From IMG/VR virus record IMGVR_UViG_3300024520_000514, positions 1-23,102 of that record: a stretch of DNA of 23,102 nucleotides. One strand, 5' to 3'. Positions within the stretch are counted from its first letter, which is position 1, and each line of letters starts with the position of its first letter. This stretch comes from a virus. The notes beneath the pieces were generated by a model. That model saw only the letters and a program-made list of their open reading frames with translations, ran no database searches and was not told the DNA's origin. This document shows, piece after piece, positions 6,263 through 17,665 of this stretch. The translations under genes were made by a program, and so were the position numbers.

Positions 6263-7410
6263 GGCGTCTCCGTTGGTAACCAGCCTCGGGCCTGTAAAGT
6301 CTGAAGGGTTAGTTGCAGACTGGCCAGGTCGGCCTCGTTCAACCAGACGCCGGCGGCCTTGCGCTTGCCCTTTTTCTTCGGATCGAGCGGGACGAAGGCG
6401 TCCGGCGGCGATAGGTGGAGCGTCGTCACGGCGCCGCCTGTTTTGTCGATGGCGAACGCGACCTCGGCGATCAGGAGCTCGCCGAACAGAGCGAGCCGCC
6501 AACAATCGACGTTAACCAAAAGGTTTGGACGCCATAGGTTGCCGGACGCTTGTCGCCACCCGCGGATCGTGACCTGAGCCTGGATCGACTTCGCCAGCCG
6601 GCCGGCCTGTTCCCACCGTGCGACCTCGCGACACCGGGCGCGGTCGGCTCGACCTGGCGCGTCCATTAACAGGAGCCGGAACCGCTCGACGGCGTCGTCT
6701 TCGACCGTCTCGAGCGTCCGAAGCTTGTTCCCGGTGTCCTTGTCCTTGCCCTTGCGCTGTCCCTTCACCCGGAGCTCGGAGAACAGGCCGGAGCCGTCAA
6801 AGGTCGCCGAGCCGGCGAGGATCCCACCGGGACCGATGGGGCCGAGCTCGAGCGCCGTCGTCGACTTGTCGGTCGAGACTCGGTCCAGGACCAGGGCGCC
6901 GATCGGGTTATCGTGGACCAGGAGCGCGTCGAGGCGCGCCAGTCGCTCGATCGCGTCGAAAGCGTGTTCGTTTTTGTTGAGCCTGAACCGCTGGATCTTG
7001 TTGGCGCTTCGGACGTTGTCGATCACGCCAACGGAGTATGGCGCTGCAATTTGCCGGGCGATCTGGGCGACGGTCAGGTTCGACCATGAGGCCGGCGTGC
7101 CCGTCGCCGAACAGTCGACCAGGTCGCCGGTCGCGGAACGTCCAGACACACCGGCCGAGGAGCTCGACGAGTCGAAGCTTGGCGACACTGAGTCGACGAA
7201 CCCGTTGACTACTTGCTCGGTGTCGAGGAAGACCTGGCAACGGGACAGCGGCCGGATCAAGATCGGGTTCGCGATATCGGGGACCTTCAGGGTCGTTTCG
7301 AACGCGAAGTCGGCGGCGGCGCGCTCGATCCCACTCGAGATCGACATTCGGGTAAAACCAGACCATTCCCGGGTCCCGACCTTCAGGCGGACGCGGTCGC
7401 GAGCGGTCAC
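6259..7410 (-). CDS. Baseplate hub protein, Mu gpP-like
   Basis: A 383-aa homologue of Mu gpP, the gp27-type hub that joins tube and spike. The N-terminus (VRLKVGTREWSGFTRMSISS) and the segments FEVxx-type strand (ADFAFETTLKVPD), VFLDTEQVVNGFVDSVSPSF, VSGRSATGDLVDCSA, WSNLTVAQIARQIAAPYSVG and LNKNEHAFDAIERLARLDAL are the family hallmarks. The C-terminal part contains strands around SIQAQVTIRGWRQASGNLWR and NLLVNVDC. The start is GTG 7410, overlapping the upstream TGA; upstream in-frame sequence is an Arg-rich shadow. A basic KKKGKRK run lies near the end and may be a surface loop. Its TGA overlaps a TTG that I take as the start of the spike gene. Confidence 0.93.
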   Translation of the reverse strand: MTARDRVRLKVGTREWSGFTRMSISSGIERAAADFAFETTLKVPDIANPILIRPLSRCQVFLDTEQVVNGFVDSVSPSFDSSSSSAGVSGRSATGDLVDCSATGTPASWSNLTVAQIARQIAAPYSVGVIDNVRSANKIQRFRLNKNEHAFDAIERLARLDALLVHDNPIGALVLDRVSTDKSTTALELGPIGPGGILAGSATFDGSGLFSELRVKGQRKGKDKDTGNKLRTLETVEDDAVERFRLLLMDAPGRADRARCREVARWEQAGRLAKSIQAQVTIRGWRQASGNLWRPNLLVNVDCWRLALFGELLIAEVAFAIDKTGGAVTTLHLSPPDAFVPLDPKKKGKRKAAGVWLNEADLASLQLTLQTLQARGWLPTETP

Positions 7411-8573
7411 GCCGACAGGACTTTGATCGGGCCGATCATGAATGCCGGGGACGCGACGGCGTTCCGCTCGACGATCTCGGCCTCGCGAACCGGATCGGCG
7501 TACCGTTCCCAAGCCAGCTCGAGACTAGACTTCGGCTCGACAAGGTCGACGGTCCGCAGAACAGCTAGATCCGTTGCCCGATTGTTGATGTCCTCGACGA
7601 GCTGCGTCCGAAGATCCAGCAGCGCTTTGAAAGAGGCGTCTCTCTCGGTCAGCTCAAGTTCAGCGTTCACCAGTTCGACGAGCTCGTCGCGCAGGATCAG
7701 AGCGTCGTCGAAGGATTCAAAGTTGACCGAGGACACGCCTCGGACCGCGTAGGCGAGGGCGAGTTGTTGCCAGAAACGGTTTGTAGCGCCCTCATTGATC
7801 GAGGACTGGACCTTGCCAGGGGTGATCGGCAGCAGCAGCGCCAGCGGGACCCGAGGAGCGATCTGGCCGAGGTATGCGCGCCAGATCGGAAGCGGCTCGA
7901 CCAGCCGGAGGAAGTCGACGGTCAGCGGCCCAAGACCGGCGGCCGGGAGAGTCGGGTCCACCAGGGCGAAAGCGTCGGCGATGTCAGACACGTCCTCGGT
8001 TAGTGCGGCGAGAAAGCGGGCCGACGTCCTGGTGAAAGCGTCCTGCAAACGGGTAAACTCATTGATCTTCGCGTCATTCACGAACCCCGGGAACCCTTGT
8101 GTCTCCACGTCGGTAATGAAGTCGGACAGGGCCGAGGACTCGACGGCGGCAACGGCGCTTTTTATGAGAAGCGGCGGATCGGGTTGCGTGACTGGCCCGC
8201 GCTCCTCGACGACTTCGACCATTTCGGCCGTGAATTCCCAGGAGCCGCCATGGTCCGCCGAAAGGTTTCCGTCGACCTTGCCGCACTGGACAGTCATCGT
8301 TCCGAGCCAAGGGTGAACCAGCGTTCCGGGGCCCTCTGTTTTGAAGGCCTTCACCATCGCTTTTCGCTGGTCGAGATAGTCGTTTCCGATCAGGAACCCG
8401 ACAACGCGGTGAGAGTGTGGATCCTCGCCGGTGTCCTCCGGGAACCACTTCCCTTGAGGGTAGTTGTGGACGGCGACGGCCCGGCCGAAGGCCTCTGTAA
8501 TACCGGGAGTGTGGAACTTGACGCCCCGGAAGCTCGCCACGTCGAGAACTGTTTCGTGCCAGTCCACAGGCAT
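7407..8573 (-). CDS. DNA circularisation/tail protein, Mu gpN-like
   Basis: A 388-aa protein. The N-terminal 130 residues follow the DNA circularisation protein N-terminal pattern: ASFRGVKFHTPGITEAFGRA, VHNYPQGKWFPEDTGEDPH, VVGFLIGNDYLDQRKAMVKA, GPGTLVHPWLGTMTVQCG. The rest is helical, with a conserved RRGVSSVNFESFDDALILRD-type region (here AVRGVSSVNFESFDDA). Despite the family name, in Mu-like phages gpN is a tail/baseplate component between tape measure and hub, and that is the likely role here. The start is ATG 8573, with AGGAGGG nine bases upstream, one base before the tape measure stop. Its TGA overlaps the GTG of the hub gene. Confidence 0.93.
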   Translation of the reverse strand: MPVDWHETVLDVASFRGVKFHTPGITEAFGRAVAVHNYPQGKWFPEDTGEDPHSHRVVGFLIGNDYLDQRKAMVKAFKTEGPGTLVHPWLGTMTVQCGKVDGNLSADHGGSWEFTAEMVEVVEERGPVTQPDPPLLIKSAVAAVESSALSDFITDVETQGFPGFVNDAKINEFTRLQDAFTRTSARFLAALTEDVSDIADAFALVDPTLPAAGLGPLTVDFLRLVEPLPIWRAYLGQIAPRVPLALLLPITPGKVQSSINEGATNRFWQQLALAYAVRGVSSVNFESFDDALILRDELVELVNAELELTERDASFKALLDLRTQLVEDINNRATDLAVLRTVDLVEPKSSLELAWERYADPVREAEIVERNAVASPAFMIGPIKVLSA

Positions 8574-8574
8574 T

Positions 8575-10293
8575 CTATAGCCCTCCTGTTGCGCGCGTTG
8601 TTCGGCCGACGCTGGCCTTCACAGGAACCGCGGGAGTGTCCGTCTTGCCCTTCACTTGCGCGTTTACGCCCTCCGGAACCGTAACTTTGACCTCCACGAG
8701 GCCCTTTAGACTCTGGGCGGTTCCGATACCTCCCGGCGGCGCGACGCTAAACCCGCCGGCCGCCGCTTGCCCGCGCGACGCTTGGCGAGCTCTTTGTTTT
8801 GCACGCCCCGCTTGATGTTGCGCCTCTATGCCCGACAGGATCGAAGCGTTGATCACCTTTTGCTCATCGCTTGTCGAAGCGTCCATGATGTCGAAGAGAT
8901 CCATAGCCTCGGCGGTGCTCTCGATCGCTCGTCTCATCTCGTGAAGAGTCTTCCTGATCTTCTTCCAAGCGTCCTCGAACATGAGGACGATCCCGGCCCA
9001 AAGCTCTTTAAAGAACTTCTTTACCTTGCTCCAGCTGCTAATGACCCAGGCCGCAGCGCCGGCGATGGCGCTGACCACGAGAACGATCGGATTCGCCATA
9101 AGGAACGAGAACAGCGCGACCAGAACGCCTTTTAGAAGTCCGAAAGCTGCGATAAGTGATCCCTTGATCACGACGGACAGCGCCAGAAAGTGCATTTTAG
9201 CGGACGCAGCCGCGGCGACGGCGGCGCCCTTCATAACGCCCGACGTGAGACCCATCGAAACCAGGAGCTTGCCGAGTGCACCAATGATCGCGAACAGGGT
9301 CGGAATGAACTTCGTCGCCATGGTCGCAATCCAAAGAACCATAGCACCATCGGCGCCGCCGATCGCTTCCCAGATGAGAGAGAAAACGGAGGCAAGACGC
9401 TTCGCGAACTCGGCAACGCCCTTCCAGTCGATCTTCGCAAGCGCCTTACCAAACCCAACAACGAAAGCTGTGACGTTTGTAGCAATGAGTTTCCGGTTAC
9501 CGGCGATCCACTTCGCTAGCCTCTCAAGAACCGGCGTGATGATCGGCAACAGCTGCGCGCCGATGACCTGGCGCGTACCAGCGAGGGCCAACTTTACCTT
9601 TGTCTGAGCATCGACGAAGTCTTCGCTCGACTTTAGAGCCGGGCCAGAGATCACGCCGTGAAGATGCCTAAACTGTTCGCGCGACTTCTTCAGGCCCTCT
9701 TGACCGCCCTCGAGGATCAGCGTCATAGCCTGGCCGGATCGGCCGAAGGCGGCAGCGGCCAAGCTCGCGCGCTTGGTCGGGTCCTCGATCTTGCCGAGGG
9801 CGCCGATCATGAGCTCGAGCGCTTCCTCGTTATTCTTAGTGCCCTTGAGAAGTTTAAGGAGAGCCGGGCTCGACTTCTTCAGGTGAGACTGAAGGCTACC
9901 GATCCCGATTCCCGCATCGCCGACGTTTCGCGTAAACTTCTGAACGGCCTTGTCGAACTGGCTTTGCTCGACGCCAGCGAGCTCGAATGCGTGCTTTAGT
10001 TCGGAATAGCTTTGCGCGCTAACACCGGCGCGCCGGGCATTCTTAGCTAGCAGATCGTTCGACTCGGCTAGGCCGGTGACCAATTTCGCCAGGCCGGCGA
10101 CGACGACAGTCCCGCCGATCAGGCTCAACCGTCCGAGCATGCGGCGGATCGTGTTCGTTGCACGGCCGGCCGCTCGAGCTACTCGGCCAAGCGGCCCGGC
10201 GATCCTCGCCACGAGGGACCGACCGATCCGACGCATCGGCGCCGTAGCTCTATCAACGGCCGCAACTACTGCTTTGATCGGGAACTCGGCCAC
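8575..10293 (-). CDS. Tail tape measure protein, Mu gp42-group-like
   Basis: A 572-aa protein that sets tail length and sits in the tube lumen. The N-terminus has basic amphipathic helices (RIGRSLVARIAGPLGRVARA) and a hydrophobic segment near 57-75. The part around VSAQSYSELKHAFELAGVEQ with FDKAVQKFTRNVGDAG, followed by KIEDPTKRASLAAAAFGRSG, is the common tape measure domain. Long hydrophobic stretches lie at about 317-348 and 369-420 and may enter the host membrane. The C-terminus is Ala/Gly-rich. It is short for the family; at about 0.15 nm per residue it predicts a tail of roughly 85 nm (inference). The start is GTG 10293, with AGAAGG upstream, overlapping no gene. Lys-rich codons and fewer CTCGAG sites set it apart from its neighbours. 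Confidence 0.92.
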   Translation of the reverse strand: MAEFPIKAVVAAVDRATAPMRRIGRSLVARIAGPLGRVARAAGRATNTIRRMLGRLSLIGGTVVVAGLAKLVTGLAESNDLLAKNARRAGVSAQSYSELKHAFELAGVEQSQFDKAVQKFTRNVGDAGIGIGSLQSHLKKSSPALLKLLKGTKNNEEALELMIGALGKIEDPTKRASLAAAAFGRSGQAMTLILEGGQEGLKKSREQFRHLHGVISGPALKSSEDFVDAQTKVKLALAGTRQVIGAQLLPIITPVLERLAKWIAGNRKLIATNVTAFVVGFGKALAKIDWKGVAEFAKRLASVFSLIWEAIGGADGAMVLWIATMATKFIPTLFAIIGALGKLLVSMGLTSGVMKGAAVAAAASAKMHFLALSVVIKGSLIAAFGLLKGVLVALFSFLMANPIVLVVSAIAGAAAWVISSWSKVKKFFKELWAGIVLMFEDAWKKIRKTLHEMRRAIESTAEAMDLFDIMDASTSDEQKVINASILSGIEAQHQAGRAKQRARQASRGQAAAGGFSVAPPGGIGTAQSLKGLVEVKVTVPEGVNAQVKGKTDTPAVPVKASVGRTTRATGGL

Positions 10294-10296
10294 GTT

Positions 10297-10473
10297 TTAC
10301 CTTCTACTCGCTTTGGCGGCGTCCTTGTTCAAGTCATCGATGACAGTCTCCGTCACGTCGTGCCAGAACTCCAAGATCTCGGACGTCCAGGTCCGCGCTA
10401 GTTGTTCCGGATCACACCCGTAAAACCGGGCCATGTGAGCAAGCCTTAACGGCCAATTCTCCGACGCTTCGAA
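10297..10473 (-). CDS. Frameshift extension of the tail assembly chaperone (gpE'/gp42-like)
   Basis: This is the -1 frame part read after slippage at the T8 run. It adds 58 residues (FEASENWPLRLAHMARFYG..., ending DLNKDAAKASRR) to codon 249 of the upstream frame, giving a 307-aa fusion. The part around ENWPLRLAHMARFYGCDPEQ is helical and looks like the T domain that in other phages binds the tape measure protein. The open frame extends upstream to 10554 but that part is an Arg/Gly-rich shadow of the chaperone. An ATG at 10434 with AAGG upstream could start a separate 45-aa protein, but it would lose the conserved-looking ENWPLRL segment. Its stop lies three bases before the tape measure GTG. 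Confidence 0.8.
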   Translation of the reverse strand, partial: FEASENWPLRLAHMARFYGCDPEQLARTWTSEILEFWHDVTETVIDDLNKDAAKASRR

Positions 10474-11219
10474 AAAAAACCCTGAACGACCTCCGCGATA
10501 GCGGGCAGGTCGACCGGGTCGATCTCGCCGACGGCCCGGTCGGTCAGTCGACAAACTTCCTTAAGGAGCTCGAACACGAGGGTCAGCTCGCCGCCCTTCG
10601 CTCCCGCCTGTCGAATGGTCCCGAAGTCGGGACGCCAAAAGCGGAGCTCGGCGAGCTCCTCGCCCTGGTTGTCGATCGGGACCTGCAAGCGAACGGCCTT
10701 GTCCTCGAGCTCGGCGAGCGGCCGACCTGTCCCGGCGCAATGAACACACTCGGCCGCGTCCCACTCGACCAGGAGCTCGCCGAGGAGCTCGTCGAGCTCG
10801 TCGGGATCGTCGACGTAACTCGACAGGTCGTCGGCGTCCTCGGCCGACACGATCCCGATCGCCAGGGCAACGAGCGGTAAATCTTGCGGGTCGATCTGGT
10901 TTATGACGTTCGACGGTTGGCGAGTTAGAAGCTCCATTAACCGGCCGGCGCCGGCCTGCGTTGCCAGGCCGTCGATCTTGACCAGGTGACGGAGCTTGGC
11001 GCGCTGGAACTCGAGAGCCTCGAGGATCTCGGTTTCGGGCGCCGGCGCGTCCTTCTTGCGCTTGCCACGGCGCCGGCTCCGGACCTTCGTCCAGGTGATC
11101 GGCTCGACGAGTTCAAGCGTGCATGACTTCGCGATCTTGACCTGGCCGGTACCTTTGCAGGGTCCACAGGGCGGATCTCGCTCGAGGCGTTGATCGGTAG
11201 CGTTCGGGGCGGCAGTCAT
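10446..11219 (-). CDS. Tail assembly chaperone (gpE/gp41-like), duplicated, with two CxxCxGTG knuckles
   Basis: A 257-aa protein at the place of Mu gp41/P2 E, just before the tape measure. These chaperones coat the tape measure while the tube is built. The P2 E-like pattern (LELVEPITW, then IDPQDLPLVALAIG) occurs twice: residues 34-124, and 172-248 with RLQVPIDN and IDPVDLPAIAEVV. Each copy is preceded by a DnaJ-like CxxCxGTG knuckle: CGPCKGTG at 18-25 and CVHCAGTG at 158-165. A basic stretch (RSRRRGKRKK) sits inside the first copy, and an Asp/Glu-rich helix precedes the second knuckle. The start is ATG 11219, with GGAG eight bases upstream. Near its end a T8 run allows -1 frameshifting into the next ORF. 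Related proteins are normally half this size. Confidence 0.85.
   Translation of the reverse strand: MTAAPNATDQRLERDPPCGPCKGTGQVKIAKSCTLELVEPITWTKVRSRRRGKRKKDAPAPETEILEALEFQRAKLRHLVKIDGLATQAGAGRLMELLTRQPSNVINQIDPQDLPLVALAIGIVSAEDADDLSSYVDDPDELDELLGELLVEWDAAECVHCAGTGRPLAELEDKAVRLQVPIDNQGEELAELRFWRPDFGTIRQAGAKGGELTLVFELLKEVCRLTDRAVGEIDPVDLPAIAEVVQGFFSKRRRIGR
10473..10479 (-). other. Slippery site for -1 ribosomal frameshift
   Basis: On the minus strand the chaperone frame reads GGT TTT TTT TCG; the heptamer T TTT TTT (10479-10473) lies within a run of eight T. Slipping back one base keeps perfect pairing at both codons and opens a further 58 codons that end just before the tape measure start. 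A -1 shift between two chaperone ORFs at this place is a conserved feature of long-tailed phages; in P2 it occurs on a T-rich heptamer too. The run is the longest homopolymer I noticed in this GC-rich window. Confidence 0.85.
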
Positions 11220-11470: not shown

Positions 11471-11851
11471 TCAGGACGGCGGGGGCTTGTAGACCGAGCT
11501 CAAGCCCTCGAACTTCGCCGGGAACGTTCCGGATGCCATGCTGATCGGGTTGCGACCACTCGACCAGGCGTTCCGGAGCGTGTAGGTCGAGCCGTCCGGC
11601 CCGTCGACCGTCACGGTCGCGTCGCGGATCTCGTTAAGCTTGACCGGGTTCGTCGCCCGGACCTTGTAAAAAGTCCCCTCGATCATCGGGATCACCGGGT
11701 TCTCGACAGCGCCGACCGGACCGGACACGCCGGTTCGGCCTTCCCGCTCGACCTGGCTGATATCGACGGTCACGTCGGCCTCGCCCCGAAGGATCTCGTC
11801 GCCGACGCGGATCGTGCATTTGCCGCCCACAATTTCGACTGTTTCCGCCAT
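11471..11851 (-). CDS. Tail tube protein, Mu gpM-like
   Basis: A 126-aa protein that forms the inner tube under the sheath (Mu gpM is about 118 aa). The family pattern is clear: VDISQVEREGRTGVSGPVG, then a segment VIPMIEGTFYKV and a strand DATVTVDGPDGSTYTLRNAW near residues 77-96, ending ASGTFPAKFEG. The start is ATG 11851, with GGAGG eight bases upstream. It follows the sheath stop by 13 bases and ends in KPPPS. The 251 bases that follow are the longest gap between two recognised genes in the window. Confidence 0.93.
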   Translation of the reverse strand: MAETVEIVGGKCTIRVGDEILRGEADVTVDISQVEREGRTGVSGPVGAVENPVIPMIEGTFYKVRATNPVKLNEIRDATVTVDGPDGSTYTLRNAWSSGRNPISMASGTFPAKFEGLSSVYKPPPS

Positions 11852-11864
11852 TTATGGATCCTCC

Positions 11865-13337
11865 CTACTGCAAGAAACGAACGAGGGCCGCGAATATGCG
11901 GAACTGGTTCGCCAGATCGGGCTTGATCAGAGCCTCGACGCGGTTTTTGTTCGTTGGATGTCGGACGACCAATAGGGCCTCTGCGAACGCCGCGGCGCCC
12001 TCGACGACACCTTCGGCTTCGAGCTCGGCGTATGTCGCGACCAGCACCGATCCGATCGCCGACGGCGTGACAGCCGGAACACCCGGGCCGACCTGCGTCC
12101 CGTCGTCAACCAGGACGTGCCGCGGGAAGTTGCCTTGGACGGCCGACCGCATGCGGCGGACGATCTCCATTAGCTGATAGCGCGTGTTTGTGAACAGATA
12201 CGAGGTGTCGTCCTGCGCGGCGGCGTTCTCTTGATACATGGTGATCGATTGATCGATCGATACTAGGCTTCCTCGCACGACCAGCGGAGAGATCCCGTCG
12301 AACATGAGCGCCTGCCGCTCCTGGAATTGCCACCGGTCCGCCTCGGCCGGCGGGACGATCCCGACGAGCGGCAGCGTCTGAAGCGGTTGACTCGACAGGT
12401 TCCGGAGCGACGCGGCCGAGCGTGCGGCGTAAGCCGCTGCGACCTCGAACTTCGGCGAGGGCGATCCTTGTAGCCCGGCGCAGGACACCGCGGGATCGTT
12501 GCGGGCGTCGCCGAAGGCCGAAAGGGCGCCCTGTGTCCCCTCGTTCGCCGTCCAGACGCCGCCGTAGATCTGGCGGGTCGCAACCCACCGTCCCGAAGCC
12601 TGATCGTACTCCGTCTCCCAGGCGTCGAGGGCGGCCGAATCAACGAAAGGCTGCACAACGAAGTCGAACAGGGTGTCGGACATGCCAGCGATCGCCGGAG
12701 TAACAACCGGGTCCGTCGCTCCGACGACGGAGTCGGCGATCACGATACCGACGCCAGGCGGGAGGACTTCGCCGGCGCCGGCGCCGAGAAAGTTCAAGCT
12801 GTGCAGCACGTTTTGACCGAGCGTGCCGGCGTTTTTCGCCTCGGTCGTCACGACGGCCAACAGGACGCTAGACGTCACGGAAAGGTCGAGATCCGCGGCG
12901 ATCGCAGCGTTGATCGCGCTGGCGATCGTGGCGTCGGTGTCGCCATCAGCAACACCGACGGTGATCAAGTCGCCGCCGATCCGTAGGAAGATCGTCCCGG
13001 AGCCGGTCGCCGGACCCGATACGGTGATCGTTTTCTCTGCGGCGAGGCCGCCGCCGGCGTCGTCGATGCCTACGGCGTAAACTTCGCCGTTAGGATCGTT
13101 GGCGAAGTAGCGGATCGCCATCCGGTGAAGGATGGACCCGCGACCGGACCGGAGCGCGACGGCCGCCGCGTTTAACACCCGCTCGACGACGCCCTCGACG
13201 CTCGGCGCGGCGGTCAGATGCTGACCAACCAGAAGCGAGGTTTCGGGGACGCTTATATCTTGCGCGTCAGCATTGGAGATCTCGAAGTAGGCGAACGGAA
13301 CTCGAACGTTTTGAGGGACCCCGGAAAAGGTGACCAT
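11865..13337 (-). CDS. Contractile tail sheath protein, Mu gpL-like
   Basis: A 490-aa protein that forms the contractile outer tube. Mu gpL is 495 aa. Family features include the N-terminal strand VPFAYFEISN, SLLVGQ followed by a helix, DGDTDATIASAINAAIAADL (variable domain strand-helix), DTLFDFVVQPFVDSAALDAW, DARNDPAVSCAGLQGSPSP, GIVPPAEADRWQFQERQALM, FDGIS, MYQENAAAQDDTSYL and the C-terminal KPDLANQFRIFAALVRFLQ. The start is ATG 13337, with AGGGAGGG upstream, one of the strongest ribosome-binding sites in the window, consistent with a highly expressed structural gene. The gene contains no CTCGAG, unlike most of its neighbours. Confidence 0.95.
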   Translation of the reverse strand: MVTFSGVPQNVRVPFAYFEISNADAQDISVPETSLLVGQHLTAAPSVEGVVERVLNAAAVALRSGRGSILHRMAIRYFANDPNGEVYAVGIDDAGGGLAAEKTITVSGPATGSGTIFLRIGGDLITVGVADGDTDATIASAINAAIAADLDLSVTSSVLLAVVTTEAKNAGTLGQNVLHSLNFLGAGAGEVLPPGVGIVIADSVVGATDPVVTPAIAGMSDTLFDFVVQPFVDSAALDAWETEYDQASGRWVATRQIYGGVWTANEGTQGALSAFGDARNDPAVSCAGLQGSPSPKFEVAAAYAARSAASLRNLSSQPLQTLPLVGIVPPAEADRWQFQERQALMFDGISPLVVRGSLVSIDQSITMYQENAAAQDDTSYLFTNTRYQLMEIVRRMRSAVQGNFPRHVLVDDGTQVGPGVPAVTPSAIGSVLVATYAELEAEGVVEGAAAFAEALLVVRHPTNKNRVEALIKPDLANQFRIFAALVRFLQ

Positions 13338-15478: not shown

Positions 15479-17665
15479 TTAGGGCGTCCCGCTGTTCCGC
15501 GTTGCGCCTCGGTGGTCTTGCCAGCCGGCGCCGAAGTCCGAGCGGGCGCGCCAGGCGATCCCGTCTACCTCGAACCCTATCTCGATCTCGGAGCTGATAG
15601 GCTCCTCTCCCTCGAGGGTTGCCCACTCGATCGTATCGTACTGGCCAGGACTAGCTAGCATGTACCACTGGTCTTCCGACGCATCGTCGAGGCGCGGCTC
15701 GGTGATCGCGATCAGGCTCCGAATGTAGGACGGGACCACGTTCGCCGCAGTTTCTGCGAGCTGTCGCTGGTCCTGAAGCTGGTCGATCTCAGTCTCGTAT
15801 GACGTCGGCGCGATGATGATCCCGGGGCGCACGTCAATATGCACCGGCGCCTCGTTCGGGTCGGTCGCGTCGGCAATAATGCCAGTTTGACGCCGCATCA
15901 GGCGACGCATCGCGCCGATCTGGGCGATGGTAGGCGCGCCGCCGCCGGCGCCGATGTCGTTGTCTCGGCCGCCTGCGACGTTGAACACCGGCGCGCCGTC
16001 GAACAAGTTCGGGTTGGTCGTCAGGAGCGCAAAAACTATATCGGCATGAAGGCGGTCGCCGGCGGCGCCGAGAAGCTGCGGCATCCGGGTAAAGGCGCGA
16101 AGATCATCGTTCACCAGTACTCGACGAGTGATCCCGACGATCTTCCCGAACGTGTCGAGAGCGTAGGTTTCGTGTCCCTCGCCGACCGATCCGCTCTGGA
16201 ACTCGCCGTGTTCCGTTAGCGGGTCCAGGCTCGGAGCGTGTCCCATTTGGAGGTTGTGGCGCGTCTTGAAGTCGCGGGCCGTCGCTTGCGTTGTGAACAG
16301 GCGCCAGGTCCCATTTGCTTCCATGTATCCGCGCCGAAGGTTTTTATCGGCGGCGTCGATCAAAAGGCCGGGGAAGTCGGCCACGGTCAGAAGGCCGCCG
16401 AGCCGCTTGTCGCGCGGCATCATCAGGCGTTCTTCCTCGCTAACCCGCGGGATTAGGCAGAGCTTGGCGAGCCGCATCGCGGACAGGCCGTCGGTATTAA
16501 TACCGCGGGCCTCGAGCTCCATTCGGCCCATTTCGAGGAGCGAGCGGCCGACAAAGCGCGCCGTCCCGTTCGGGTCCTCGAATGAATCGATCGGATGTTG
16601 CGCGGGGTTCGAGCGGTGAAGCAGGGCGTTTCGCATGCGGCCACAACGGGTTCCTTCCTCCGTCCGGTCGCCGAGCTCGACGCGCACGCCGCCGGCGACG
16701 CGGTCGGCCTCGTCCTTCGCGGCGGTCAGGTCGAAAAACTTGGCCCGAGCGGCGTCGAGGGTCACGCCCTGGTCGACGAACTCGACGGCCAGGCGCTTCG
16801 CCTCGGCGTCGCCGAGGAAATGCGCGGCCTGGTCGCCAGCGCTACGGATCCCGGAAACCCGGATCCGCTCGGCCGCGGCGGCCTCGTCACTAGCTCGTCG
16901 AATCGCCTCGGACTGGGCGGCGCTTCGCTCGCCGCAAGTGCCTTGACAGCTCTCAACGTCACATCGTCGGCAGGACATATTATCTCCAGTCAAATCTGTT
17001 TGAGCGCGGCGCTGAGCCGTCCTCGAGGCAGGTTGGCGGACCTGGTCAACCCATGGGAAGCGGCCGGCGAAGCCGCACACGACACCGTCACAGTCCCGCC
17101 ACTGTTCAGGATCTTTCGCTCTTTGAGCGCGGGAAAGCTGGCCGGACCGCATACCGACGCCGTCGTCGGCGGCGATCGGAACTAACGATAACTCTAACGG
17201 TTCCCACTGGACGGCCTCCCGGATCATCATGGATCCGGACTTCGCGTCGGCGGGAGTTTCTCGCCACTCGTTCACGTTGTAGCCGACGGACCACTTCCCG
17301 AGGATCCCGTCGGCGACGTCGGCGACGATATCGGCGATCTCGTCTCGCTTGCTAAAGCGGACCCCAGCGCGTCCCTCGCCGGCGGCGCTGTCGAGTTCGG
17401 CCGTTTCGACGACTCCGAGGACGTCCCGGACCGACCAGGCCCAATGAGAGTCGAGGACCTGCGCGCGGTTCTGAAGGCGTCCCAGGTCGACGGCGCCCTC
17501 GGCCATGGACAGGCGCTCGACGAACGGCTCGCCGAAAAAAGGATGACGGACGACCTCGGCGCCGGTTGACCAAACGATTTCGATCGTTCGGGCCTCGGCG
17601 TTCCAAGTCTCCGGGAGCGCTCGAGCGAGCCGTCGGATCCTGTAACTTTCGTTTCGCTTTGTCAT
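15479..17665 (-). CDS. Prohead protease-major capsid protein fusion
   Basis: One ORF of 728 aa joins two functions usually encoded apart. Residues 1-175 form an HK97/U35-type prohead protease: WNAEARTIEIVWSTGAEV, the likely catalytic His in VLDSHW (H74), Ser in KWSVGYNV (S126) and the WEPLELSLVPI segment with candidate Glu158. Residues 175-230 are a linker. A Cys cluster, CRRCDVESCQGTCG, begins at residue 232. A helical delta/scaffold-like segment spans about 255-345, and the HK97-fold capsid about 375-725, ending in the typical ARSDFGAGWQDHRGATRNSG. The start is ATG 17665, with GAGG four bases upstream; a TTG at 17710 is the alternative. A strong internal Shine-Dalgarno precedes Met230, so free capsid protein may also be made. 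Such fusions are known in other phages with related heads. Confidence 0.93.
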   Translation of the reverse strand: MTKRNESYRIRRLARALPETWNAEARTIEIVWSTGAEVVRHPFFGEPFVERLSMAEGAVDLGRLQNRAQVLDSHWAWSVRDVLGVVETAELDSAAGEGRAGVRFSKRDEIADIVADVADGILGKWSVGYNVNEWRETPADAKSGSMMIREAVQWEPLELSLVPIAADDGVGMRSGQLSRAQRAKDPEQWRDCDGVVCGFAGRFPWVDQVRQPASRTAQRRAQTDLTGDNMSCRRCDVESCQGTCGERSAAQSEAIRRASDEAAAAERIRVSGIRSAGDQAAHFLGDAEAKRLAVEFVDQGVTLDAARAKFFDLTAAKDEADRVAGGVRVELGDRTEEGTRCGRMRNALLHRSNPAQHPIDSFEDPNGTARFVGRSLLEMGRMELEARGINTDGLSAMRLAKLCLIPRVSEEERLMMPRDKRLGGLLTVADFPGLLIDAADKNLRRGYMEANGTWRLFTTQATARDFKTRHNLQMGHAPSLDPLTEHGEFQSGSVGEGHETYALDTFGKIVGITRRVLVNDDLRAFTRMPQLLGAAGDRLHADIVFALLTTNPNLFDGAPVFNVAGGRDNDIGAGGGAPTIAQIGAMRRLMRRQTGIIADATDPNEAPVHIDVRPGIIIAPTSYETEIDQLQDQRQLAETAANVVPSYIRSLIAITEPRLDDASEDQWYMLASPGQYDTIEWATLEGEEPISSEIEIGFEVDGIAWRARSDFGAGWQDHRGATRNSGTP
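16976..16987 (-). promoter_or_regulatory. Internal ribosome-binding site and in-frame start within the protease-capsid ORF
   Basis: On the minus strand GGAGATAATATG lies inside the coding sequence, with GGAG at 16987-16984 and ATG at 16978-16976, a spacing of five bases. It is in frame and would start a 499-aa product (MSCRRCDVESC...) lacking the protease domain but keeping the scaffold-like helices and the whole capsid fold. It falls exactly at the domain boundary. The A/T-rich spacer stands out in this GC-rich gene. Use of the start is inferred. Confidence 0.55.

Follow-up and report, generated by a model that had tools for sequence, protein, structure and literature searches.

The sequence analysed here, a 23,102-base virus contig from IMG/VR (hereafter the window), carries on its minus strand a series of tail genes in the order sheath, tail tube, chaperone, tape measure and DNA circularisation or hub protein (Table 1). 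The chaperone open reading frame starts with an ATG at position 11219 and stops at 10446, encoding 257 amino acids that include six cysteines (residues 18, 21, 33, 158, 161 and 223). The original prediction had placed a frame at exactly 10446-11219 without naming a strand, which we can now give as minus. When phage genomes are compared, the position of this gene between those for the tail tube and the tape measure protein is found to be the order of Mu and SfV, where the tail chaperone likewise is the gene between the two. The data support a Mu-like myophage whose chaperone belongs, as judged by sequence, to the P2 E / Mu gp41 family.

Table 1. Features of the chaperone locus. Positions are those of the window, except in the last four rows, which give two-domain chaperones at the other loci named.
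Feature	Position	Strand	Basis
DNA circularisation / gpN-like baseplate hub protein	7407..8573	minus	Pfam DNA_circ_N, E 2e-22
Tape measure protein, downstream neighbour, expected client	8575..10293	minus	phrog_8125, E 7.4e-29
Predicted -1-frame extension, 58 residues + stop, E' / T-like	10297..10473	minus	profile of relatives' extensions
Tail assembly chaperone (TAC) ORF, short form, 257 aa	10446..11219	minus	Pfam Phage_TAC_7; phrog_166 tail protein
TAC domain 2, residues 174-250	10470..10700	minus	Pfam 176-249; AlphaFold2 pLDDT mostly >90
T8 slippery run at GFF codons, likely -1 frameshift site	10472..10479	minus	sequence; runs in relatives
Knuckle 2, CVHCAGTG, residues 158-165	10725..10748	minus	sequence
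Acidic linker between modules, residues 125-156	10752..10847	minus	sequence; helical in full-length model, medium confidence
TAC domain 1, residues 32-124, basic insertion at about 45-61	10848..11126	minus	alignment shuffles, hhalign, AlphaFold2
Knuckle 1, CGPCKGTG, residues 18-25	11145..11168	minus	sequence
Tail tube protein, upstream neighbour	11471..11851	minus	Pfam Tail_tube, E 3e-20
Tail sheath, Mu gpL-like	11865..13337	minus	phrog_165, E 1.7e-147
Tandem TAC, L203	4778-5341
Tandem TAC, L197	6193-6780
Tandem TAC, L277	4413-4916
Tandem TAC, L273	6415-6969

Residues 176-249 match Pfam Phage_TAC_7 (PF10109) at 27.7 bits, above the gathering cut-off of 25 (E = 2.8e-6), and the protein also matches the tail protein family phrog_166 (E = 6.9e-9) and phrog_103. 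AlphaFold2 gives residues 174-250 a confident fold of two strands (174-184 and 187-194) and four helices (199-206, 211-222, 227-232 and 235-250). Searches of the PDB with the C-terminal half returned, at modest Z scores, YqbN (3klu, Z 6.0) and the HK97 tail chaperone (2ob9, Z 4.3), a related fold, and a PDB sequence search using a TAC alignment gave one weak match, the chain 8fje_A, named E8 (E = 5.7e-4). The chaperone identity is thus supported by the Pfam and PHROG families, the place of the gene and the fold matches.

The GFF codons at the end of this TAC domain contain the run GGTTTTTTTTC, and a predicted -1 slip on its eight T residues would give a long form of approximately 307 amino acids, 58 of them new. 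Neither the run nor the extension had been part of the original prediction. Among 194 TACs, the window's included, the longest alternative frame is the -1 frame, continuing for at least 35 codons past the stop, in 146, and a homopolymer run of at least six nucleotides, nearly always of T, accompanies the long -1 extension in 132 of these 146 (again with the window's counted). A profile built from the extensions of relatives scores 14.5 bits on the window's extension, a narrow margin over the best of 2000 shuffles (12.0 bits). The RNA downstream of the slip site is not unusually stable (z -0.03). The T8 run and the extension are likely to be the standard E/E' or gpG/gpGT arrangement, which most relatives have kept, with the slip itself being predicted. 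A matching frameshift arrangement has been described in lambda and P2-like phages; P2 slips by -1, and for Mu a -2 slip is reported (PMC5009743).

Besides this C-terminal domain, the original prediction recognised a second copy, such that the protein would be a chaperone like P2 E or Mu gp41 but built of two modules, each a CxxCxGTG knuckle followed by an E-like domain. Shuffling tests, profile comparison and the order of fold elements uphold this description, and the sequence landmarks are where they were said to be: CGPCKGTG at 18-25 and CVHCAGTG at 158-165, LVEPI and LQVPI after the respective knuckles, and IDPQDLP and IDPVDLP beginning at residues 109 and 233. Comparing the halves with each other, as had been proposed, yields a local alignment score of 52, which is reached by 2 of 2000 shuffles (mean 27.7); with the knuckle segments left out, none of 2000 shuffles reaches the real score. 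BLASTP of one half against the other gives E = 3e-4, and the mutual identity of the modules is about 25%. The N-terminal half also aligns with the single-domain TACs of loci L128 and L220 at scores above all of 3000 shuffles, and the C-terminal half matches both as well. Against those of L029 and L221 the C-terminal half stands out and the N-terminal half does not. When the N-terminal half is compared to a TAC profile by hhalign, the value is 56.5% versus at most 3.1% in 60 shuffles. Taken alone, this half has no Pfam TAC match and no PHROG match, and the TAC profile finds it weakly (6-8 bits, i-Evalue 7.4). The anticipated relationship of both halves to the gpE/gp41 families holds for the C-terminal half, with a score above the Pfam cut-off; for the N-terminal half it is favoured by the shuffle and hhalign results, though not by a family match of that half alone.

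Structure prediction is consistent with the same picture. With TAC sequences supplied as the alignment, blocks of residues 31-120 are modelled at pLDDT 80 to 94, with strands at 32-45 and 62-72 and helices at 76-81, 88-99, 103-106 and 111-121. This input biases the model towards the TAC fold, and the beta hairpin of the N-terminal half does not form in a model made without the TAC alignment. The full-length model contains helices at 88-99, 103-106 and 111-124 in this half, offset by 123-124 residues from the helices of the C-terminal half. The order of elements is identical in both halves of the AlphaFold2 models, and unrelated folds, which the original prediction had named as evidence that would count against it, were not seen. 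A fold search with the N-terminal half returned a single structure, 3fgx, at a modest Z of 4.6; like 3klu and 2ob9, it is a tail chaperone (PMC9603447), and the fold compared is that of YqbN, HK97 gp13 and Rbstp2171. Among viral folds, the N-terminal half is matched best by the tape measure chaperone of Burkholderia phage Mica, which comes second for the whole model. Moreover, the invariant Asp of the family is aligned at both D113 and D237. That residues 32-124 are a second, diverged TAC copy is therefore supported by shuffles, profile comparison and predicted fold. In domain 1 a strongly basic insertion, KVRSRRRGKRKKDAPAP (11037-11087, minus strand), separates the two strands; neither domain 2 nor the aligned single-domain relatives have it.

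A knuckle stands directly ahead of each TAC domain, and the two cysteine pairs are 140 residues apart. The residues C, C, G, T and G are the same in both knuckles, and three of the five codons differ synonymously (GGT/GGG, ACC/ACA and GGC/GGT). Because these residues are identical while their codons have changed and the domains have diverged to the extent noted above, the motif is probably functional. The pattern suggests a motif that has been under selection and that was already present before the doubling. The original prediction had named a lack of conserved cysteine pairs in homologues as evidence that would count against it, and in the family at large such pairs are indeed lacking: CxxC occurs in none of 310 distinct TAC domains (392 loci), within a stretch reaching from 45 residues ahead of the domain to 20 past its end. 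Judged from these sequences, the CxxCxGTG pairs are particular to this chaperone within the family sampled and are not a family feature.

No other knuckle-bearing TAC was recovered by whole-protein searches of viral contigs and GenBank phages, through alignments of the module or of the sheath, tube and C-terminal half, or when the protein or module profile was used as query against several hundred proteobacterial genomes. The sole record that is nearly identical, L002/L229, breaks off within the sheath gene. Leaving aside a single near-identical fragment, no sheath that was found is more than 44% identical to that of the window, so the lineage is isolated in the collections searched. Matches to CxxCxGxG at other loci were rejected, being outside the TACs, as was one beside the tube gene of L328, which is out of frame. 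Weak matches to the tail chaperone families phrog_4537 and phrog_18843 cover residues 137-170 (10710-10811, minus strand) and fall when the cysteines are replaced by serine, being partly cysteine-dependent. They hint that other chaperone families may carry a similar cysteine motif, and neither family was found in the genomes searched, nor did the segment match any GenBank phage.

The doubling itself is more widespread. Two TAC_7 domains per chain are present at L203, L197, L208, L211, L212, L218, L219, L277, L273, L378 and L412; those scanned with Pfam show two stretches apiece. They represent about five other lineages, with L208, L211, L212, L218 and L219 being near relatives of L203 and L197. 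These proteins occupy the same gene place as the window's chaperone wherever the neighbourhood was read, and those of L203, L197 and L277 also share its -1-frame extension, but none of the tandem proteins of other lineages contains CxxC. In a domain tree, which is based on 98 columns and is not to be pressed, the copies of L203/L197 and those of L277 each pair inside their respective lineages, so that doubling probably arose several times. The copies of L273 group with different single-domain relatives, and thus may reflect fusion rather than duplication. Those of the window fall near L128 and L029 with support open, the N-terminal copy on a very long branch. Since two-domain chaperones without the cysteines exist elsewhere, the knuckles are all that sets the window's chaperone apart. 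Searches of the open-access literature listed no paper on a tail chaperone that binds zinc or is built in tandem. The earlier claim that no tail chaperone of this form is described stands for the knuckles, of which the family searched gave no second example, and fails for the doubling, which recurs in other lineages.

Compared with P2 gpE/E' and Mu gp41 (PF10109), the window's chaperone has in common the domain, the gene place, a slip site where the domain ends and the alternative-frame extension. However, the P2 and Mu proteins have one domain, whereas the window's has two, each with its preceding knuckle. Lambda gpG/gpGT and HK97 gp13 do the same job, by analogy, and are likewise made as two products by frameshifting, but they are single domains whose sequences are not detectably similar to that of the window's protein. 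We know of no knuckles in either system.

We favour, with moderate confidence, the reading of this protein as a frameshifted Mu-like tail chaperone composed of two fused domains with a putative joint Cys4 zinc site. The lambda tape measure protein is bound by gpG and by the G portion of gpGT, whose T portion brings in tube subunits (PMC5009743). By extension from lambda and P2, a -1 slip on T8 would generate a less abundant long form ending in a T-like tail, the short form would coat the tape measure protein, the long form would recruit tail tube subunits, and both would depart before the tail is completed. Less certain is the putative folding together of the two knuckles as a single Cys4 zinc site; because its pLDDT is below 50 at residues 4-54 and 156-163, the full-length model shows no such geometry. 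TACs form rings or spirals, and docking of a subunit's N-terminus on its neighbour is known from HK97 gp13 and YqbN (PMC9603447). A zinc site could lock the modules head-to-tail, the order that separate subunits take through their N-termini, and one chain would then supply two subunits of the chaperone spiral as a ready-assembled unit. It is a plausible though tentative proposal that a single zinc, held jointly by both knuckles, locks the fused subunits into such a metal-clamped block, and the intramolecular dimer of the original prediction is a conjecture of this kind.

Alternatively, the same frameshifted, two-domain chaperone might pair its knuckles across chains, with the putative zinc joining neighbouring chains of the spiral. 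The docking of one N-terminus on the next subunit in TAC spirals and rings (PMC9603447) would suit this arrangement, as would the closeness of knuckle 1 to the N-terminus of the chain, but both knuckles are already available in one chain and at matching places, and we regard the cross-chain pairing as unlikely, though a fair rival. It is distinctly unlikely that the knuckles, if they bind zinc, form a separate surface for a partner such as the tape measure protein, the tube protein, RNA or a host protein, instead of clasping the modules. They do lie outside the TAC fold, in segments of low confidence, and these segments are weakly similar to two-motif zinc proteins, namely the DnaJ central domain, the Q-like antiterminator phrog_6060 and anti-TRAP. 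Nevertheless, those matches are far under curated cut-offs where these are present and reflect the CxxCxGxG motif alone, with no overall similarity. For example, the DnaJ central domain (PF00684) scores 15.4 bits against a cut-off of 32.7, and the chaperone has two motifs where four are needed, so it is not a member. Unlike in these proteins, moreover, a whole domain and a linker separate the window's cysteine pairs.

The cysteines could instead bind no metal and be a peculiarity of the lineage, in which case the protein would be an ordinary tandem chaperone. The cysteine-free tandem TACs of several lineages and the absence of CxxC from the distinct relatives agree with this; that C, C, G, T and G have stayed exactly the same in both diverged copies, despite synonymous codon changes, makes it very unlikely. 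Finally, an unrelated N-terminal domain with a chance IDPxDLP match would account for the weak profile score and the missing family matches of that half, but is extremely improbable given the shuffle tests, the hhalign result, the aligned D113 and D237, the shared fold order and the same flanking knuckle.

The protein bears on a wider problem: tail chaperones are believed to wrap the tape measure protein in a spiral, and the arrangement of subunits there is poorly known. Natural two-subunit fusions, which recur in several Mu-like lineages, offer ready-made constructs for testing subunit order and stoichiometry. Should the knuckles bind zinc, they would mark the touching ends of neighbouring subunits, and metal removal would provide a test of assembly or release.

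A further cysteine cluster, CRRCDVESCQGTC, occurs elsewhere in the window (16934-16972, minus strand; residues 247-259 of its reading frame), between the two parts of a prohead protease/major capsid fusion (NCBIfam NF045541). The protease/capsid fusion of Rhodobacter phage RcMeacham has just three scattered cysteines.
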